From Steroidobacter gossypii (GTDB taxonomy: Bacteria; Pseudomonadota; Gammaproteobacteria; Steroidobacterales; Steroidobacteraceae), in contig NZ_JAEVLS010000001.1 of NCBI RefSeq assembly GCF_016801985.1, positions 930,001-994,000 of the forward strand: a stretch of 64,000 bases of DNA. Reading direction: 5' to 3'. The notes under the pieces are model-generated. The model made no database searches. It was given only the letters and a program-made list of their open reading frames with translations, and was not told the DNA's origin. The stretch's first letter is position 1, and every line of letters begins with the position of its first letter. The position numbers were made by a program, and so were the translations under genes. Below are positions 54,140-61,637 of the stretch, one piece after another.

Positions 54140-54610
54140 TTACATCAACACCTTGGCAGGTGCACGCCAGCGCGGCGCGGAAGTGCGGCCGGTGGCGTAG
54201 TACAGATCCATGGTGCGAACGCCTTTGACACGACGAGTCGAGCGCCGGACTTCGCGCAGCAGCTTCAGCAGCAGTTGTTCGTTGGCGCGGCGACCGCCGC
54301 TGGCGAATTCCGCGCTGATGCCAACATGAACGACTGTCACGTGCTCGATGTCCTGACGCGCATAGACCGCCACGCCGACCGGCCGGCCGGTCTCGGTGTC
54401 GATCGCGAACAGGGACTGCACTTCCGGCAGGCCTTTCACATGAATGCGCAGCCGGTCGCGATCGGCGACGATCTCCGGCGAGCCGAACTTCTCGATGGCG
54501 TCGGCGATGCAGGCGCTGACGCGCTCCTGGCAAGAATTGAAAAACAGCAGCGCTTCCAGCGCCGGCTTCTGCGCGACCGGCACATGCGATTTAAATTCTA
54601 TTTTGCTCAT
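54140..54610 (-). CDS. Small hypothetical protein, possibly GNAT-like
   Basis: 156 residues. The segment VTVVHVGISAEFASGGRRAN then EQLLLKLLREVRR resembles the beta4-alpha3 acetyl-CoA site of GNAT acetyltransferases, but the Q/RxxGxG/A motif is only loosely matched (FASGGRRA). Otherwise unrecognised: VKGLPEVQSLFAIDTETGRP and a basic C-terminus. ATG at 54610 is preferred to 54634. It lies 66 bp upstream of the YafD-like gene on the same strand. Coding is likely, function is not assignable. Confidence 0.6.
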   Translation of the reverse strand: MSKIEFKSHVPVAQKPALEALLFFNSCQERVSACIADAIEKFGSPEIVADRDRLRIHVKGLPEVQSLFAIDTETGRPVGVAVYARQDIEHVTVVHVGISAEFASGGRRANEQLLLKLLREVRRSTRRVKGVRTMDLYYATGRTSAPRWRAPAKVLM

Positions 54611-55171
54611 GAGCCTACCGATCCGAGGCCACACCGTATCGATCCGTTCGCAAGGAGCGCATCATGAGCGGCGCCCGCGGCCTTGTCGAGCATCACAAGT
54701 TACCTCTTACGGTGCGTAACTGCCGGCAACGACGCTGAAAACGACCTCTTATCGCCGGCTTGTTGCATTCCGGCGGCATTGACTTGACCGGGCCCGGACA
54801 GGCAAAACGTATGCTGCAGCGCCTTCGGCAATGTATCGGGGGCCGGCTGTTGCATGGATGTCACAGCAATGAAACAGCGGCGAACCGAACTTTCCGGAAG
54901 TCACAGCCCGGCAAGGGGTTCAGGCGGTGCGCGAAACTTTGAACTGGCGCAAGTTTTCGGGATTAAAAAACGGGAACTAAGTCGAGCGACAGGCAAAGTG
55001 CTTATTGTCAGATTAGACACTCGTTCATCAGGGAGCGGAAAGACGGCAGTCTGGGAAGACGAAGCCTGCGCGGTTGTGACCGCTAACGGCTGAAGGGGCT
55101 GGCTTTCTGCGCATTCCGGCTTGAGGTAGGTCAGTCGCGGCCCGTGGGGCGTGCGGCCAAGGGGAAGGTAC
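54611..55171. other. 561-bp non-coding stretch upstream of the kinase operon
   Basis: Two small open frames here have no ribosome site and no protein-like composition, so I treat the region as non-coding. It is less GC-rich than its surroundings around 54940-55025. TTGAAC (54938-54943) and ATTAAA (about 54961) at a 17-bp spacing are a weak promoter candidate for the downstream operon. I see no repeat or stable RNA. Confidence 0.4.
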
Positions 55172-57475
55172 ATGGGAATTCTTGATCTGGGTCGGTACAA
55201 AGGAATCGTATTCGCGATCACCGGCTTTCTGGTGTTCATCGCCATCATTCTGGCGGTGAACCACGGCAAGGCGGGCCAGTTCTCGGACAACGTCGCGGGC
55301 GTGCGCTTCCTCGAGAATCGGGCGAAGCAGCCGGGCGCCGTGTACGACATCAGCGTGCAGCTGGCCGAACGCCTGCGGCAGGGCGAAAAAATCGACGAAA
55401 CGTTGAGCAGCCTGCAAAAAGCCGCCGCCGCCTTCGACAACTCCCTGAACAGCCTCGCCAACGGCGGCATGATCACCGACGCCAGCGGCGACGTGTTCGT
55501 GCTGCCGACCATGACCACGCCGGCGGCGGTCGAACGCCTCAAGAACGCCAGCAAGCTGTGGGACGGCTACAAGGCCAAGCTGAACCCGGTCATCAACTTC
55601 TCCGGTTCGCCCTACTACACGGCCCAGCCTGCGCCGGCTCCGGCCGCCGCCAACGGCAAAGCCCCGGCAGCTGCTCCCGCCGCGCCCGCGGAACCGACGG
55701 TTCAATACAGCCCGCGCGGACGTCGCCTGCAGGCGGCCCTGAACGATCTCGTTCAGTACGGCAACACCGCTCACGGCCAGCTGGCCAAGGTGATGACCGA
55801 CCTGTCCGTGGAAGTGGAAGCTGCCAGCCGCACGGAAACCGGCACGCTACGCGCCATTCAGGTCGGCGGCATGGTTGCGGCCCTGCTGTTGCTGGGCGCG
55901 ATCTTCCTGTTCTTCGCCCGCAACCTGCGTAAAGAAGAAGCCGCCTCGAACCGACAGCGCAAGGAAACCCAGGACATTCTGCGCACCGTGAACGAAGGCC
56001 TGTTCCTGCTGGACAAGGACCTCAAGCTCGGTAGCGAGCGCTCCATGGCGCTCAACGGCATCTTCCGTCGCGAAGACTTCAGCGACCTGACCTTCGACAA
56101 GCTGCTCAAGGACATCGTGCCGGAGAAGACCCTGAAGACCGCGATGGACTACGTCGCGCTGCTGTGGGGCGAGCGGGTCAACGAGAAGCTGGTGAAAACC
56201 ATCAACCCGCTGAACGAAGTCGAAGTGCACTTCGACAATCCGGCCGGCGGTTTCGACACGCACTTCCTGGAATTCGACTTCAACCGCGTGAAATCCGAAG
56301 GCTCGCTGTCCCACCTGCTGGTGACGGTGAACGACGTGACCAAGCGCGTGATGCTGTCGCGCGAACTGCAGGATTCGCAGGAAAAGGCGCAGGCCCAGCT
56401 GGACCTGCTGTTGCGCATCCTGCACGTGGAGCCGGACAGCCTGACCAGCTTCCTCACCGACGCCGACGTGTCGTTGAAGATGGTCAACTCCATCCTGAAA
56501 GAGCCGGCCCGCGAGGAAACGGCGTTCCGCGCCAAGATCGACGGCATCTACCGTCAGGTGCACGCGGTCAAGGGCGAAGCGGCGGCGCTGGGCCTGAAGA
56601 CCGTCGAGCAGCGCGCGCATGCCTTTGAAGAATCGTTGAACGACCTGAAAGGCCGCCCGTCCCTGTCGGGCAGCGACTTCCTGCCGCTGGTGGTGAAGCT
56701 GGACGATCTGTTCAACCACCTGGCGCAGGTCCGCGAGATGCTGAGCCGACTGGTCGATCTGCACCACGCCATCGCCAGCAAGCGCAGCGCCGGCGGCGAA
56801 GTCGCCGCCGAGAAGGTGGATCAGTGGCTTGCTGGTCAGGAACAGACGCAGATCACCAAGGCGCTGGTCGCGCCGCCGGCCGATGTCGCGGAAGCCACCG
56901 GCGCAATCGGCGGCCTGGAGCGCACCCTCGAAGACCTGGCCGCGCGCGTCGCGAGCAGCCAGTCCAAGCGGGTCAATCTGCGTTGCACGGGTCTGGACGC
57001 GGTGCCGGAGGCGTATCGTCGCGCCGTCAAGGACATCACCATTCAGCTGGTACGCAACGCCGTGGTCCACGGCATCGAGGAGCCGAGCGAGCGCGCCAAG
57101 GCCAACAAGGCCGAGACTGGCGCGTTGGCGGTTGAATTCTCACCGCGCGGCGCCGACGGCTACGAGCTGATCGTGCAGGACGACGGCCGTGGCTTGCAGC
57201 TGGATCGCATCAAGGAAGTGGCCGTGGAACGCGGCCTGATCACGCCGGCCCAGGCCGCGCTGCTGGATCCGCGCCAGACCATGGCGTTGATCTTCCGCCC
57301 TGGCTTCTCCACCGCCGACCGGGTCACCACCGACGCCGGTCGCGGCGCCGGCATGGATCTGGTGCGCATCCTCGTGGCCGAGCTGGGCGGGCGCGTCGGC
57401 CTGGCCTCGGCGGGCGGCAAATTCTCCAAATTCAAGATCTGGCTGCCGACGGCGCAAAGCGCCGCCGCCGCCTGA
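55172..57475 (+). CDS. Membrane CheA-like histidine kinase (HPt + HATPase)
   Basis: 767 residues. TM1 is about 10-28 and TM2 about 229-250, enclosing a 200-residue sensor part with an Ala/Pro-rich insert. A PAS-like segment (about 260-390: VNEGLFLLDKDLKLGSERSM) follows, then an HPt domain with phospho-His464 (QVHAVKGEAAALGL) and a CheA-type HATPase (Asn629 in LVRNAVVHGIEEPSERAK, VQDDGRGLQLD, RGAGMDLVRIL). No CheW domain closes it, so it is not a chemotaxis-array CheA. GGGAAGG precedes the ATG. It is the first gene of a four-gene signalling operon. Confidence 0.85.
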   Translation: MGILDLGRYKGIVFAITGFLVFIAIILAVNHGKAGQFSDNVAGVRFLENRAKQPGAVYDISVQLAERLRQGEKIDETLSSLQKAAAAFDNSLNSLANGGMITDASGDVFVLPTMTTPAAVERLKNASKLWDGYKAKLNPVINFSGSPYYTAQPAPAPAAANGKAPAAAPAAPAEPTVQYSPRGRRLQAALNDLVQYGNTAHGQLAKVMTDLSVEVEAASRTETGTLRAIQVGGMVAALLLLGAIFLFFARNLRKEEAASNRQRKETQDILRTVNEGLFLLDKDLKLGSERSMALNGIFRREDFSDLTFDKLLKDIVPEKTLKTAMDYVALLWGERVNEKLVKTINPLNEVEVHFDNPAGGFDTHFLEFDFNRVKSEGSLSHLLVTVNDVTKRVMLSRELQDSQEKAQAQLDLLLRILHVEPDSLTSFLTDADVSLKMVNSILKEPAREETAFRAKIDGIYRQVHAVKGEAAALGLKTVEQRAHAFEESLNDLKGRPSLSGSDFLPLVVKLDDLFNHLAQVREMLSRLVDLHHAIASKRSAGGEVAAEKVDQWLAGQEQTQITKALVAPPADVAEATGAIGGLERTLEDLAARVASSQSKRVNLRCTGLDAVPEAYRRAVKDITIQLVRNAVVHGIEEPSERAKANKAETGALAVEFSPRGADGYELIVQDDGRGLQLDRIKEVAVERGLITPAQAALLDPRQTMALIFRPGFSTADRVTTDAGRGAGMDLVRILVAELGGRVGLASAGGKFSKFKIWLPTAQSAAAA

Positions 57476-57532
57476 TGCCTGGCTGGGACGGACCGGAAAA
57501 CGACTGGATATCGAAGACTAAGAGGGACTGTA

Positions 57533-57952
57533 ATGGCGAGCGCCAACGCTAAAGCTCAACCGTTGACGAACGGTAAGCTCAAGCTCATGATTTGTGACGA
57601 TTCAAACATCATTCGCCGCAAGATCGAGCGAGAGCTGCAGATCGAGCGTCTGCAGGTCATCGCGACCGCGGCGAATGGGAAGCAGGCTGTCGAGGCCTTC
57701 CGCAAGGAGCCGGCGGACGTTGTCACCATGGACATCACGATGCCCGAGATGGATGGCATCGAATGCGTCGAGAACCTGGTGAAGATCAAGCCTGACGTTC
57801 TCATCCTGGTGATTTCCGCGCTCTCCGACAAGGCCACCGCCATCGAAGCTTTGAAGAAGGGGGCCAATGGCTTTCTGTGCAAGCCGTTCACGGATCGCCA
57901 GCTGACAGAAGCGCTCGAAGAGCTGCTGAGGGGCGCCGGCAATGATGACTAA
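57533..57952 (+). CDS. CheY-like single-domain response regulator
   Basis: 139 residues, receiver domain only. Acidic pair in LMICDDSNIIRR, phospho-Asp67 in VVTMDITMPEMDG, Ser/Thr in ILVISALSDK, Lys in FLCKPFTDRQ. With no output domain it must act by protein contact or as a phosphate carrier. It is probably phosphorylated by the preceding kinase. Its last 11 nt overlap the CheX start. Confidence 0.92.
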   Translation: MASANAKAQPLTNGKLKLMICDDSNIIRRKIERELQIERLQVIATAANGKQAVEAFRKEPADVVTMDITMPEMDGIECVENLVKIKPDVLILVISALSDKATAIEALKKGANGFLCKPFTDRQLTEALEELLRGAGNDD

Positions 57953-58391
57953 AGTTGAGTTGGAAACCTTCGTCGAAGGCACCACGCATTATTTCGCGAC
58001 CGCGGCCAATCAGCCCGCCTCGGTGGGCTCGCCCTACATCGTGCAGGAAGGCAAGCCGACCATCCAGGAGTTCACCGGCCTGATCTCCATCGCCGGTAAG
58101 CGTCGCGGCATCGTTTACTTCACCGCATCGCGGCCGATGCTCACGGTCATGCTGATGCGCATGGGCGAAACCGAGCTCACCCAGGAGAACATGTGCGACC
58201 TGGTGGGCGAAGTGGCCAACACCATCTCGGGCAACGCGCGCCGGGATTTCGGCAAGGACTTCATGATCTCGGTGCCGACCGTGGTGGCCGGCGAGCCGGA
58301 AAAGGTCGTCACGCCCGACAACATCCGCTCCTTCGTCATCCCGATCAACTGGCGCAGTCATTCGGCGCAGCTGGTCGTTTGCCTGGAGTGA
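57942..58391 (+). CDS. CheX-type CheY phosphatase
   Basis: 149 residues. The key ExxN catalytic pair is Glu90/Asn93 in VGEVANTISGNARRDFG, as in Thermotoga CheX. FTGLISIAGKRRGIVYFTAS and PMLTVMLMRM match the family beta sheet. It should dephosphorylate the CheY-like protein, with which it overlaps, resetting the circuit. ATG at 57942 or 57945. Confidence 0.88.
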   Translation: MMTKVELETFVEGTTHYFATAANQPASVGSPYIVQEGKPTIQEFTGLISIAGKRRGIVYFTASRPMLTVMLMRMGETELTQENMCDLVGEVANTISGNARRDFGKDFMISVPTVVAGEPEKVVTPDNIRSFVIPINWRSHSAQLVVCLE

Positions 58392-58446
58392 TCCGCCATG
58401 CCTGGTCGAAAGCGGCCGCGGCCCTTTCGATAGTCGAGATGATGAC

Positions 58447-60282
58447 GTGCCCAGTACGCGGCCCGAAGATTTCCTTTCCACGGTCCGCACCACGGCGGCG
58501 CGGCCGGGCCAGGTTCTTGATGTCGTCGTACTGAGTTCGGATGCGACCCTGCTCGAGGCCCTGCGCTCCGGCGCCGGGTCCGAGCACGCACTCTGGGATG
58601 TTCCTTCCGCCGACGCGGCCGTCGACTATCTGGTCGGCGGTCGCTGCGACGTGCTGATCGCCGATGTCGGCACTCTGGGCGGCGCTGTGGCCGCGCTGAT
58701 CGATCGCCTGCAGGCGCAATTTCCCGAGTTGATCTTCATGGCCACCGGCCGGCGGGAAGAGGAAGGCGCGGTCGCGTCCCTGCTCAGCAGCGGTCGTCTT
58801 TATCGGTTCTTGCACAAGCCGGTGTCGCCGGGGCGTGCTTTTCAATTCCTCAACGCAGCCACGCGTCGCTATAACGAGCTGGGCGATATTCCGGTCGCTC
58901 GACAATCGGTGCGGACCATTGCCGGCAAGCGCGCCCATTTCGGCAAGGTTGCGGCTGCCGCGGGCGGCATTGTCGCGGCGGTGGTCGCATTCGTGATCTG
59001 GCAATCGCGCGATCAGGGCCTGCCGGCGACACTGCAAACGACGCAGGTCGCGGACGCGCCAGTGGAGGATGTCGTCAAGTCGAAGCTGGGTAGCGCACAG
59101 ATCGCCTATCTCAGCGGCAGGCTGCTCGATCCTCGTGGCGACAATGCATTGGAATATTATAGAGCGGTGCTGGCGCTGCAGGCGGACAACGCCGAAGCAA
59201 AAGCCGGCGTGCAGAAAGTCATCGACACACTGGAGCAGCGTGTCCTCAAAGGTTTGCAGGAACGCAATGCGCCTGGCGTGGTGAAGGCGTGGACGGCGTT
59301 GCAACGCGCGGCACCAGATCATCCCCGGTTGGATGCTTTGCGAGCGCAGCTGTTAGCGCTGTCTCGCACGGCGCCGGCGCCCTCGCCGGCTGCTGTCGCG
59401 AGCAACTCGCGGCCCACGCGCGCCGAGTCGAGCACGCAGGTTTCGGCTTCATCGCGTGCGGGCGCGGCCAGCTCAAATATTTCTTCGGCAGGGCCGGGCT
59501 CGGCACGTGGTGACGAAGTTGCGGCAGTTGTTACGAACGTTCCCGGGCCCGAGTTGGCTGCCGCTGATGTCGCCGAGCGCGAGCTGGCCGAGGCCATTGC
59601 ACGCGAGCTCGCGGAGCAGGAAGCTGCGTCCAATGCGGCGTCGCTCGAGCAGGTCGCCGATGTTCCTGTCGAACAAGGTCCGTCGCTGGCCGAGCAGCTC
59701 GCCGCTGTCACCGCTCTCCGCGAACGCGGCGCGCTGATCGCGCCTGCTGGTAACAATGCGTTTGACGCGGTGATGGCGCTTCGCGAGCGTTATCCCGATG
59801 CGGAAGAAGTCCGTGGCGAACAGCAACGCCTCGCGTTTCTTTTGCTGGATCGTTCCAGGACGGCGCTGGCTGCAAACGACATCGATCAAGCTGCAGTAGC
59901 GATCGATCGAGCCAATACACTCGTGCCTGGCGCTCAAGCCGTGCGCGCCTTGCAGGAGCAGCTGTCGGCGGCTCGGGAGCAACGGGATTTCTACAGGAAC
60001 GTCGCGGCCGCCGCGAGCTTGAAGCGTGTTCGCGAAGTACCGCCTGTTTACCCGCGCGAGGCCGCCCGCAAAGGCACCGAAGGCTGGGTGCAAGTTGAAT
60101 TCACCATCGCGCCGGACGGCACGACCCAGGACTTGCAGGTTCGCGACTCCCAACCGGCGCAGGTCTTCGACAAAGCGGCCCTCGATTCAGTCAGCAAGTG
60201 GCGCTTCGAACCGATCCGCAGGAACGGCGCGCCAGTGGCCCAGCGCGCCATATTGCAAGTGAAGTTCGTAGTCACCGACTGA
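58447..60282 (+). CDS. Receiver-TM-TonB fusion protein
   Basis: 611 residues. Residues 22-145 read as a receiver domain: VVVLSSDATLLEAL, Asp73 in VLIADVGTLGG, Thr in FMATGR, Lys124 in LHKPVSPG; only one Asp of the usual acidic pair is present, so phosphorylation is uncertain. One membrane helix is at about 168-186. An Ala/Glu-rich periplasmic stretch with TPR-like pieces follows, ending in a TonB C-terminal domain (about 535-608: YPREAARKGTEGWVQVEFTI, VSKWRFEPIRRNG). It starts with GTG. It would receive a cytoplasmic signal and contact outer-membrane receptors. No exbB/exbD is nearby. Confidence 0.85.
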   Translation: MPSTRPEDFLSTVRTTAARPGQVLDVVVLSSDATLLEALRSGAGSEHALWDVPSADAAVDYLVGGRCDVLIADVGTLGGAVAALIDRLQAQFPELIFMATGRREEEGAVASLLSSGRLYRFLHKPVSPGRAFQFLNAATRRYNELGDIPVARQSVRTIAGKRAHFGKVAAAAGGIVAAVVAFVIWQSRDQGLPATLQTTQVADAPVEDVVKSKLGSAQIAYLSGRLLDPRGDNALEYYRAVLALQADNAEAKAGVQKVIDTLEQRVLKGLQERNAPGVVKAWTALQRAAPDHPRLDALRAQLLALSRTAPAPSPAAVASNSRPTRAESSTQVSASSRAGAASSNISSAGPGSARGDEVAAVVTNVPGPELAAADVAERELAEAIARELAEQEAASNAASLEQVADVPVEQGPSLAEQLAAVTALRERGALIAPAGNNAFDAVMALRERYPDAEEVRGEQQRLAFLLLDRSRTALAANDIDQAAVAIDRANTLVPGAQAVRALQEQLSAAREQRDFYRNVAAAASLKRVREVPPVYPREAARKGTEGWVQVEFTIAPDGTTQDLQVRDSQPAQVFDKAALDSVSKWRFEPIRRNGAPVAQRAILQVKFVVTD

Positions 60283-60290
60283 TCTTCTGG

Positions 60291-61637
60291 TCAATGGGGC
60301 GAACCGGACGGTCGCACGGTCGCGCTCGCTGCCACGCGATCGCCTTGCAGCTTCTCTTTGTCTTCGAAGCGCCGGCCCAGCCACCAACCCAACCCAGCCC
60401 ACAATGCCGCCACCGCCGCACCCAGCCAGGCCACGGCGGCGATACCGAACCCAGCTCCCGCGACGGCATTGTTCAATTGCGCCGACAACGCATCGGAGGC
60501 GCGATACACGGGCACATCCACCGTGTTCTTGGCTTTGTATTTGGTTTCTTTATCGAGCGGGCTCCACAACATCTCCCGGCCCGGTCGCACAAACGCATAT
60601 TCCATTGCGCGGCGTGCGATCACGACCACCGTGAGCACCGCGAAAGCGCCCGACATCGCGAGCGCGCCGAAAGCGAAGATCATGATCACCGGCACGAAAG
60701 TGATGAGCGTCTTCACGCCGAACTTAGCGGCGATCCGACCGGTGAGGAAGATCTGCGATAGCACCGTCAGAGTCTGCACCACCCAATCGAAGCGGGCGAA
60801 AATCTGCGTGCGATTCTCCAGGTTTGGGAAGTGCTCCTCGACCATGCGCAGCTGTTCGAAATACAACAGCGTGTTCACGCAGGAAATGCCGACCACGAAT
60901 AGCGCGATTCCGAGCACGTAGGGCGACTTCAGGATCAGCGGCACACCGGCAAAGGGATTGCCTCCGATCGGTCGATCTTCGGCTTTGGTGGTGGCGTCCG
61001 CGCGCTCCGACCAGACGCCCAGCAGGATTCGCTGGCAGAAGATCGCCACGACGAACAGCCCGGCGCCGAAGAACAACACGCCGCTGTTGCCGATGAGCGG
61101 CACCACCAGATCCGACACGAAGGGGCCGAACAGAGCGCCGGCGCTGCCACCGGCGGCGATCACGCCGAACAGGCGCTTGGTCTGCTGACGATCGAACAGC
61201 TCGAGCAGGAAGCTCCAGAACACCGACAGCAGGAACAGGTTGACCACGCTGATGAACACGTAGAAGAACTTGCCCGCCGCCAGGTTGATCGCATCCTGGC
61301 GCAGCGCCAGCCCGGTGATCACCAGCACCACCGCGACGATGCCGTACATCCAGGGCAGGAACATGCTGCGGCGGAACCGCGCCACCACCGCTCCATACAG
61401 CGGAATGATCAGCACCGAGACGATGGAAGTGATGATCCAGATATCGGCCAGCTTGTCGCGGCCGATGATGGTGCCGATGGTCTCGCGCACCGGTCGCACC
61501 GAGAAATAACCGCTCCACATGAAAAAGAACAGGAAGAAAGCGGCGACCACCGCCGCGGTCTCGGCCGGCTGGATCGGCGCGAGTCGCGACAGGAACCGGC
61601 CGAAGGGCGAGGATGGCGGCTGAGCAGGTGTATTCAT
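60291..61637 (-). CDS. NTP/NDP-exchanger-like (TLC/MFS-type) membrane transporter
   Basis: 448 residues with about 12 membrane helices. SGYFSVRPVRETIGTIIGRD near the start, QQTKRLFGVIAAGGSAGALF and REMLWSPLDKETKYKAKNTV resemble the nucleotide-exchanger (Npt/TLC) family first known from Rickettsia and Chlamydia. Free-living proteobacteria carry related proteins of unknown substrate. An ordinary MFS permease is the alternative. It is convergent with the receiver-TonB gene, 8 bp apart. Confidence 0.65.
   Translation of the reverse strand: MNTPAQPPSSPFGRFLSRLAPIQPAETAAVVAAFFLFFFMWSGYFSVRPVRETIGTIIGRDKLADIWIITSIVSVLIIPLYGAVVARFRRSMFLPWMYGIVAVVLVITGLALRQDAINLAAGKFFYVFISVVNLFLLSVFWSFLLELFDRQQTKRLFGVIAAGGSAGALFGPFVSDLVVPLIGNSGVLFFGAGLFVVAIFCQRILLGVWSERADATTKAEDRPIGGNPFAGVPLILKSPYVLGIALFVVGISCVNTLLYFEQLRMVEEHFPNLENRTQIFARFDWVVQTLTVLSQIFLTGRIAAKFGVKTLITFVPVIMIFAFGALAMSGAFAVLTVVVIARRAMEYAFVRPGREMLWSPLDKETKYKAKNTVDVPVYRASDALSAQLNNAVAGAGFGIAAVAWLGAAVAALWAGLGWWLGRRFEDKEKLQGDRVAASATVRPSGSPH

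Follow-up and report, generated by a model that had tools for sequence, protein, structure and literature searches.

The closest described counterpart of the protein considered here is GltG of Myxococcus xanthus, a 640-residue protein made up of an FHA domain, a transmembrane (TM) helix, a periplasmic helical part and a TonB C-terminal domain (TonB_C), which binds the motor protein AglR and which, together with GltJ (PglI/AgmX), is counted among the modular TolA/TonB-like proteins of the Agl-Glt gliding machine (PMC3169522, PMC5349195). A second point of reference is provided by pseudo-receiver (PsR) domains, which PMC12632262 defines as receiver folds missing one or more of the five residues of the active site; the way in which they are switched is there called a mystery, with heterodimers with other two-component parts being a discussed model. 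In a window of 64,000 nucleotides from the 7.1-Mb genome of Steroidobacter gossypii (G000:C11:930001-994000; here and below, L and G numbers are the locus and genome labels of the analysis) four plus-strand open reading frames (ORFs) at 55172-60282 encode, in this order, a membrane histidine kinase, a stand-alone CheY, a CheX phosphatase and a fusion protein that joins a pseudo-receiver, through a TM helix and two TPR-like domains, to TonB_C. The modules as such are known, and what is new is their combination throughout a family; the unit, comprising four or five genes, is conserved over the Steroidobacteraceae and occurs in named Steroidobacter, Peristeroidobacter and Povalibacter strains.

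In its general layout the fusion is similar to GltG/GltJ, but it does not belong to that group. With GltG, its nearest precedent, it shares the succession of a cytoplasmic domain, a TM helix, a periplasmic helical part and TonB_C, whereas in place of the FHA domain of GltG it has a pseudo-receiver; it has no FHA match in Pfam, and its match to the AgmX/PglI C-terminal profile NF033768 (2.6e-5) lies below the cut-off. A literature search, which covered few subscription papers, returned no title or abstract describing a receiver-TonB fusion or an operon of this kind.

An earlier note, made from the sequence alone, had proposed this four-gene arrangement and named its parts, and both were borne out by the ORFs, their Pfam domains and, for the receiver of the fusion, structure prediction. 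The kinase (767 amino acids, 55172..57475, +) combines an Hpt domain (2.5e-7; His464) with a CheA-type HATPase (HATPase_c, 7.8e-12), ends just past the latter and has, as had been claimed, no CheW (P5) match in Pfam. Its N-terminal part, read by eye, contains two TM helices flanking a putative periplasmic region of about 200 residues, followed by a PAS-like linker; a match to a PilJ-like sensor lies below the cut-off. Since the best long models, those of CheA, reach 143.9 bits against an equivalog cut-off of 950, the kinase is considered to be of the CheA class yet not CheA. After a gap of 57 nucleotides follows CheY (57533..57952, +; Response_reg 3.8e-29) with a complete active site (D22, D23, D67, S95, K117), overlapping by 11 nucleotides with the gene for CheX (57942..58391, +; PF13690 9.4e-20), the sole CheX match in the genome, whose E90-x-x-N93 corresponds to the ExxN motif that we take to be catalytic. 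Among relatives His464 is found in 75 of 75 non-gap rows (78 rows in all), the N-box Asn in 77 of 77, all five CheY residues in 79 of 79 rows and both CheX residues in 80 of 80; with its active residues invariant the relay is therefore intact by sequence, and the three proteins appear to be a working kinase-carrier-phosphatase set. The nearest CheX genes, 97-99% identical, belong to Peristeroidobacter agariperforans, P. soli, Steroidobacter agaridevorans, Povalibacter uvarum and metagenome-assembled genomes of Steroidobacter. The likeness to CheA-CheY-CheX chemotaxis circuits lies in the kinase with Hpt and CheA-type HATPase, the stand-alone CheY and CheX; unlike in those circuits, the kinase has no CheW domain, and the ten neighbouring proteins scanned include no CheW, chemoreceptor or flagellar protein.

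The association of this cassette with TonB_C was assessed by scanning one genome per species with a CheX profile, the best 80 of the 168 relatives obtained being kept as loci. Kinase, CheY and CheX are accompanied by a TonB_C gene upstream in 55 of these 80 loci and downstream, as in the window, in 12, which amounts to 67 of the 68 assessable loci, 12 further ones being cut by contig ends. The only locus that extends far enough to either side and shows no TonB_C gene, L122, lies in genome G123, whose fusion orthologue stops before TonB_C, so that this locus, too, has a receiver-TM-TPR protein. In 44 of the 55 upstream cases the TonB_C gene ends no more than 38 nucleotides from the longest ORF of the kinase, or inside it, and in the remaining 11 a single Ser/Thr kinase gene of 1.3-1.4 kb intervenes, as at L132:4048-5397, L139:4011-5381, L169:4097-5413 and L179:4029-5375 (Pfam Pkinase, with a receiver-like N-terminus by eye). 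In a second sample, drawn from an overlapping species pool, CheX loci were viewed in 20 out of 83 genomes with a CheX match; 18 showed an upstream TonB gene and the remaining two were cut.

Linkage in 67 of 68 loci means that the adjacency is not due to chance, and chance neighbours were rejected as the main explanation. In a tree of 68 proteins (quick method, midpoint root, long branches for L126, L055 and G297) the 24 upstream-type rows used, about half having been left out, form one clade with support 100, the window type falls within the stand-alone group, and the partner at L125 groups with a paralogue of the window protein (L009:14727-16796). Judged from these sequences, cassettes are paired with at least three subfamilies of one architecture, which is in our view the strongest sign of function. 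That the neighbourhood reflects inheritance alone and has no functional meaning is scarcely credible: receiver-TonB genes elsewhere do have conserved neighbours of their own, as this explanation would have it, but the linkage extends over 67 of 68 loci, either side of the cassette and three subfamilies, in a setting where a 7.1-Mb genome holds just 15 TonB_C matches. We consider it very likely that kinase, CheY, CheX and fusion act together.

The fusion itself (611 amino acids, 58447..60282, +, GTG start) begins 55 nucleotides after CheX. An AlphaFold2 model of the full length, based on an alignment of 30 sequences, has a mean predicted local distance difference test score (pLDDT) of 81.7 and a predicted template modelling score (pTM) of 0.39, a value at which the placement of the domains relative to one another is not to be trusted. 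The model contains a pseudo-receiver at residues 22-146 (58510..58884, +), a single TM helix at about residues 167-186 (58945..59004, +, also seen in hydropathy), a first TPR-like helical domain at residues 206-308 (59062..59370, +), a linker at residues 309-413 (59371..59685, +) that is mostly of low confidence except for a helix at 371-397, and a second TPR-like helical domain at residues 414-518 (59686..60000, +); Pfam TPR families match at most 7 of 30 family members. TonB_C occupies residues 532-608 (60040..60270, +; PF03544 6e-22, 78.3 bits against a cut-off of 24.6) and starts from about residue 524 in the model. Its closest solved structures are those of the Pseudomonas aeruginosa TonB C-terminal domain (6i97, 6fip), the FoxA-TonB complex 6i97 also giving the best Foldseek match of the full-length model (TM-score 0.89 by target). 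The protein is thus predicted from the model to be bitopic, with the TPR-like and TonB_C parts in the periplasm.

Because both Pfam (no Response_reg match at E 0.1) and BLASTP miss a receiver at the N-terminus of the window protein, the domain was assessed by predicting its fold and by comparing profiles; weak Response_reg matches do exist for 9 of 30 family members, the best at 0.0025. AlphaFold2 folds residues 21-164 as a receiver (pLDDT 87.4, pTM 0.81), and Foldseek returns 235 PDB matches at E ≤ 0.001 for this domain, led by the receiver of HupR (E 1.2e-6, TM-score 0.70), nearly all of the top 50 being annotated as receivers or response regulators, FrzS and TadZ included. The receiver that the earlier note had placed at residues 20-150 and joined to a TonB C-terminus is in this way supported by structure prediction. 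Alignment by hhalign with a CheY-like profile (probability 93%, E 3.2e-7, 78 columns) sets D73 on D67 and stops short of the acidic-pair stretch. Of the residues said to be retained, D73, T100 and K124 are indeed present, while the loss of one member of the acidic pair has to be amended: both positions look lost, being Ser30-Ser31 followed by Asp32 according to the strand and helix layout and a gapless comparison with CheY by eye. With active-site residues missing, the domain is a pseudo-receiver by the definition of PMC12632262, and it shares with other PsR domains a receiver fold without the full active site, but differs from them in being fused to a TM helix and TonB_C and in the constancy of its Asp.

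This constancy, and the decay around it, can be seen in an alignment of 92 rows consisting of the window protein, its paralogue (twice), 12 downstream-type (D), 26 stand-alone (H) and 4 paralogue-type (Q) proteins and 48 of the 55 upstream-type (U) proteins, 7 of which were dropped (5 without a TM call, 2 cut short). All 90 aligned relatives (D 12/12, H 26/26, Q 4/4, U 48/48) have an Asp at the position of D73. The Thr position is variable (T6 A4 I2 in D, A22 T2 V1 I1 in H, A4 in Q, mostly Phe in U), and the Lys is kept in D (12/12) and in 24 of 26 H rows, the other two having Arg, and is lost in Q and U. At the acidic-pair positions the relatives show Ser or Thr, a variable residue and then a mostly conserved Asp, in an alignment that is gappy, especially for U. 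The N-domain of the upstream type is homologous to that of the window type (hhalign probability 96.7, E 4.4e-10, 123 columns), which provides its connection with receivers; the direct comparison with the CheY profile reaches a probability of 5.5. Direct phosphorylation of the fusion was rejected as the main explanation, the acidic pair being missing and Thr and Lys not conserved, and the N-domain is likely to be a non-phosphorylated pseudo-receiver.

Receiver-like domains are also found in scaffolding and anchoring roles, as in FrzS and TadZ/CpaE. A fusion acting in this manner would fix the signalling complex at a site of the envelope, TonB_C binding the wall or outer membrane statically; the FrzS and TadZ receivers among the Foldseek matches, the TPR-like domains and the absence of TonB_C from some members are all in line with this, but most members retain TonB_C, and we regard such a role as unlikely.

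According to PMC12215075, canonical TonB has in its TM helix an SHLS motif whose His is essential and contacts ExbB. In the fusion family the TM stretch was chosen by hydropathy, a single polar or charged residue being tolerated, so that one His was admissible, and after 3 of the 92 rows with a TM call had been set aside as weak, cut or fragmentary, none of the 89 credible stretches (D 12, H 26, Q 4, U 47) was found to contain a His; in 8 of the 89 a His lies within five residues before the stretch, as does His164 in the window protein, whose helix has none inside. Among the other TonB_C proteins of the genome a TM His is present in 5 of 11 (L276 twice, L277, L013, L282) and absent from 6, the most hydrophobic stretch of several of these 6 resembling a signal peptide. 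The genome has 8 ExbD matches, none of which lies on the contig of the window. The fusion therefore has in common with canonical TonB a TonB_C above the Pfam cut-off, best matched by the P. aeruginosa domain, and departs from it in the N-terminal pseudo-receiver, the TPR-like spacer, the missing SHLS His and the lack of an ExbD match on the contig. It seems likely, though less than certain, that it is not energised by ExbB/ExbD as TonB is; the fusion probably receives no phosphate itself and is probably not powered in the manner of an ordinary TonB.

These observations bear on the suggestion of the earlier note that transport across the outer membrane, or a TonB-box receptor, is switched by phosphorylation, which found no support in view of the pseudo-receiver, the TM helices and the orthologues without TonB_C. 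A phosphorylated receiver switching a TonB that works with ExbB/ExbD to power TonB-dependent receptors would fit the presence of D73, T100 and K124, the closeness of TonB_C to the P. aeruginosa domain complexed with FoxA and the ExbD genes of the genome, but the acidic pair is missing, Thr is unconserved even among the 12 downstream-type proteins, the TM His seen in other TonB_C proteins of the genome is lacking in the fusion and no ExbD match shares its contig, making this very unlikely. Ordinary TonB-dependent transport was likewise rejected as the main explanation on account of the TM helix and of two orthologues within the genus from which TonB_C is absent. A 421-residue TM-TPR-TonB_C protein without a receiver, perhaps the architecture of the fusion minus its signalling head, is encoded at L012:4829-6094 beside a gene resembling Ycf48/BNR repeats by eye.

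We therefore propose, with a probability of roughly 40%, that the locus is a family-specific envelope-signalling operon in which docking of phosphorylated CheY (CheY~P) or of the kinase on the pseudo-receiver controls a periplasmic arm. The kinase would sense a periplasmic cue and phosphorylate CheY, from which CheX would remove the phosphate; CheY~P (or the kinase) would bind the pseudo-receiver and change the state, clustering or reach of the arm, whose TonB_C may touch an outer-membrane or cell-wall partner, drawing no ExbB/ExbD energy in the usual way. Docking of CheY~P as the actual switch is a tentative part of this proposal. The earlier note had also offered a mechanical or adhesive output of a chemosensory-like circuit; a trans-envelope output of a CheA-type circuit is retained as the leading idea. 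The operon would in any case be a tractable one in which to ask how pseudo-receivers are switched, and whether TonB_C proteins can be signal-controlled envelope linkers rather than transporters driven by the proton-motive force. A broader reading, which we hold to be rather unlikely, would see here a new class of trans-envelope output: in Steroidobacteraceae non-energised TonB-like arms would have been coupled on more than one occasion to a CheA-type relay, with a receiver that can no longer be phosphorylated reading CheY~P, and the inner membrane would be linked to the outer membrane under phospho-control without a transcription factor or flagellar motor.

Several observations weigh against the proposed operon. 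Within the genus CheX is 91-99%, CheY 88-99% and the kinase 70-89% identical, whereas identity in aligned segments of the fusion amounts to no more than 42-81%, which is unlike a tightly constrained direct partner. The motif YRFLHKPxS, in the putative docking face at beta5-alpha5, is kept only in the window and stand-alone types, and is lacking in the upstream type, the commonest partner of the cassette. The Asp is kept throughout, with T100 and K124 alongside it in the window protein, and residual phosphorylation is possible. Among 40 receiver-TonB loci of the family, hand-picked from a larger match list, 12 lie beside a cassette and 28 away from one; the co-occurrence expected in the earlier note thus holds when viewed from the cassettes, which have a TonB neighbour, and breaks down for those 28 receiver-TonB loci. 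CheX is encoded elsewhere in 16 of the genomes concerned, and 12 of the 28 are without a convincing CheX, some of them being incomplete and the weak match in G062 (E 9.8e-4) being counted as none. In 4 of the 40 loci (L059, L072, L073, L082) the N-domain protein lacks TonB_C, an absence read in three frames for L072 and L073 and apparent at L059 and L082.

Part of the same evidence fits a reversed direction of signalling, in which the fusion would be the sensor, its TonB_C and TPR-like parts detecting the state of the outer membrane or wall and the pseudo-receiver relaying this inward to the kinase or CheY, in a logic similar to that of FecR. The fusion gene precedes the kinase in 55 of the 67 linked loci, the predicted topology is bitopic and rapid evolution is to be expected of a sensor; the kinase, however, already owns a putative periplasmic region, and cassettes outside the family do without such a partner, so that this reading appears somewhat unlikely to us.

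With regard to those outside cassettes, the CheX profile matched 33 of 370 genomes of the class. All 12 strong CheX loci outside the family (10 genomes) have kinase, CheY and CheX, and the TonB_C profile found nothing in any of the 12, L225 being cut on one side; in other families of the order it found nothing in 6 cassette loci, L303 being cut on one side. At L227 two ORFs that by eye resemble TonB and ExbD, and that the TonB_C profile did not score, follow CheX at a distance of about 3.5 kb, two genes of opposite orientation lying in between. At eight loci of the class with weaker CheX matches (L235-L242) CheX stands alone, without such a kinase or CheY. As the profile detects no TonB_C beside cassettes outside the family, the TonB partner seems to have been added within Steroidobacteraceae.

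Searches for the fusion gave a similar distribution. A class-wide search with the N-domain profile matched 121 of 370 genomes, matches taken to be general receivers except in G000, G003 and G297. Among 397 genomes phylum-wide, a full-length profile (E cut-off 1e-18, three candidates scored per genome, misses possible) found a full-length receiver-TonB protein only in the genome of the window; a match in G806, inspected as was the one in G297, was rejected as a TonB fusion, being a protein kinase with two receivers. In another family of the order, L275:6723-9614 encodes a 963-residue protein with two receivers, a TM helix, several TPR-like repeats and TonB_C, in a genome without a CheX match.

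Within the genus, the fusion orthologues at L072:5750-6928 (in a genome of one contig) and L073:7351-8919 end before TonB_C, so that, judged by sequence, a member may lack this domain and still retain its receiver-TM-TPR part. The paralogue L009:14727-16796 (G000:C11:1004727-1006796), 689 residues long and located about 11 kb past the end of the window, has Thr at the Lys124 position and is followed by a gene that resembles a MATE transporter by eye; a paralogue is found at a similar distance in several members of the genus. Kinases of the same type occur near receiver-TonB genes at two of the 28 cassette-free loci, L049:10504-12633 and L056:9547-10605, with no CheY or CheX in the locus.

The four genes are flanked by two others that probably do not belong to the unit: a conserved small gene of 164 amino acids (54140..54634, -), divergent from the kinase and without a Pfam family at E 0.001, and a convergent MFS/TLC-type transporter gene (60291..61637, -), which is a frequent neighbour of receiver-TonB genes. 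Many of the 28 cassette-free loci have the former, the latter or both as neighbours, as in the window, and in other genera genes of the 54140 type are divergent from stand-alone receiver-TonB genes. A promoter scan, in which 0.4 promoter-like sites were to be expected, found two, of which one lies inside cheY and the other at 54661-54689 on the minus strand; terminator-like sites occurred at chance level only.

Further variants of the cassette were seen outside the family. A receiver-Ser/Thr kinase gene (Pfam) adjoins it in place of the TonB gene at L226:8113-9357, as does a divergent gene of the receiver-Ser/Thr-kinase type (own profile) at L304:11115-12443, and at L228:5742-13431 two kinase-CheY-CheX cassettes share one locus, one of them with two tandem CheX genes.

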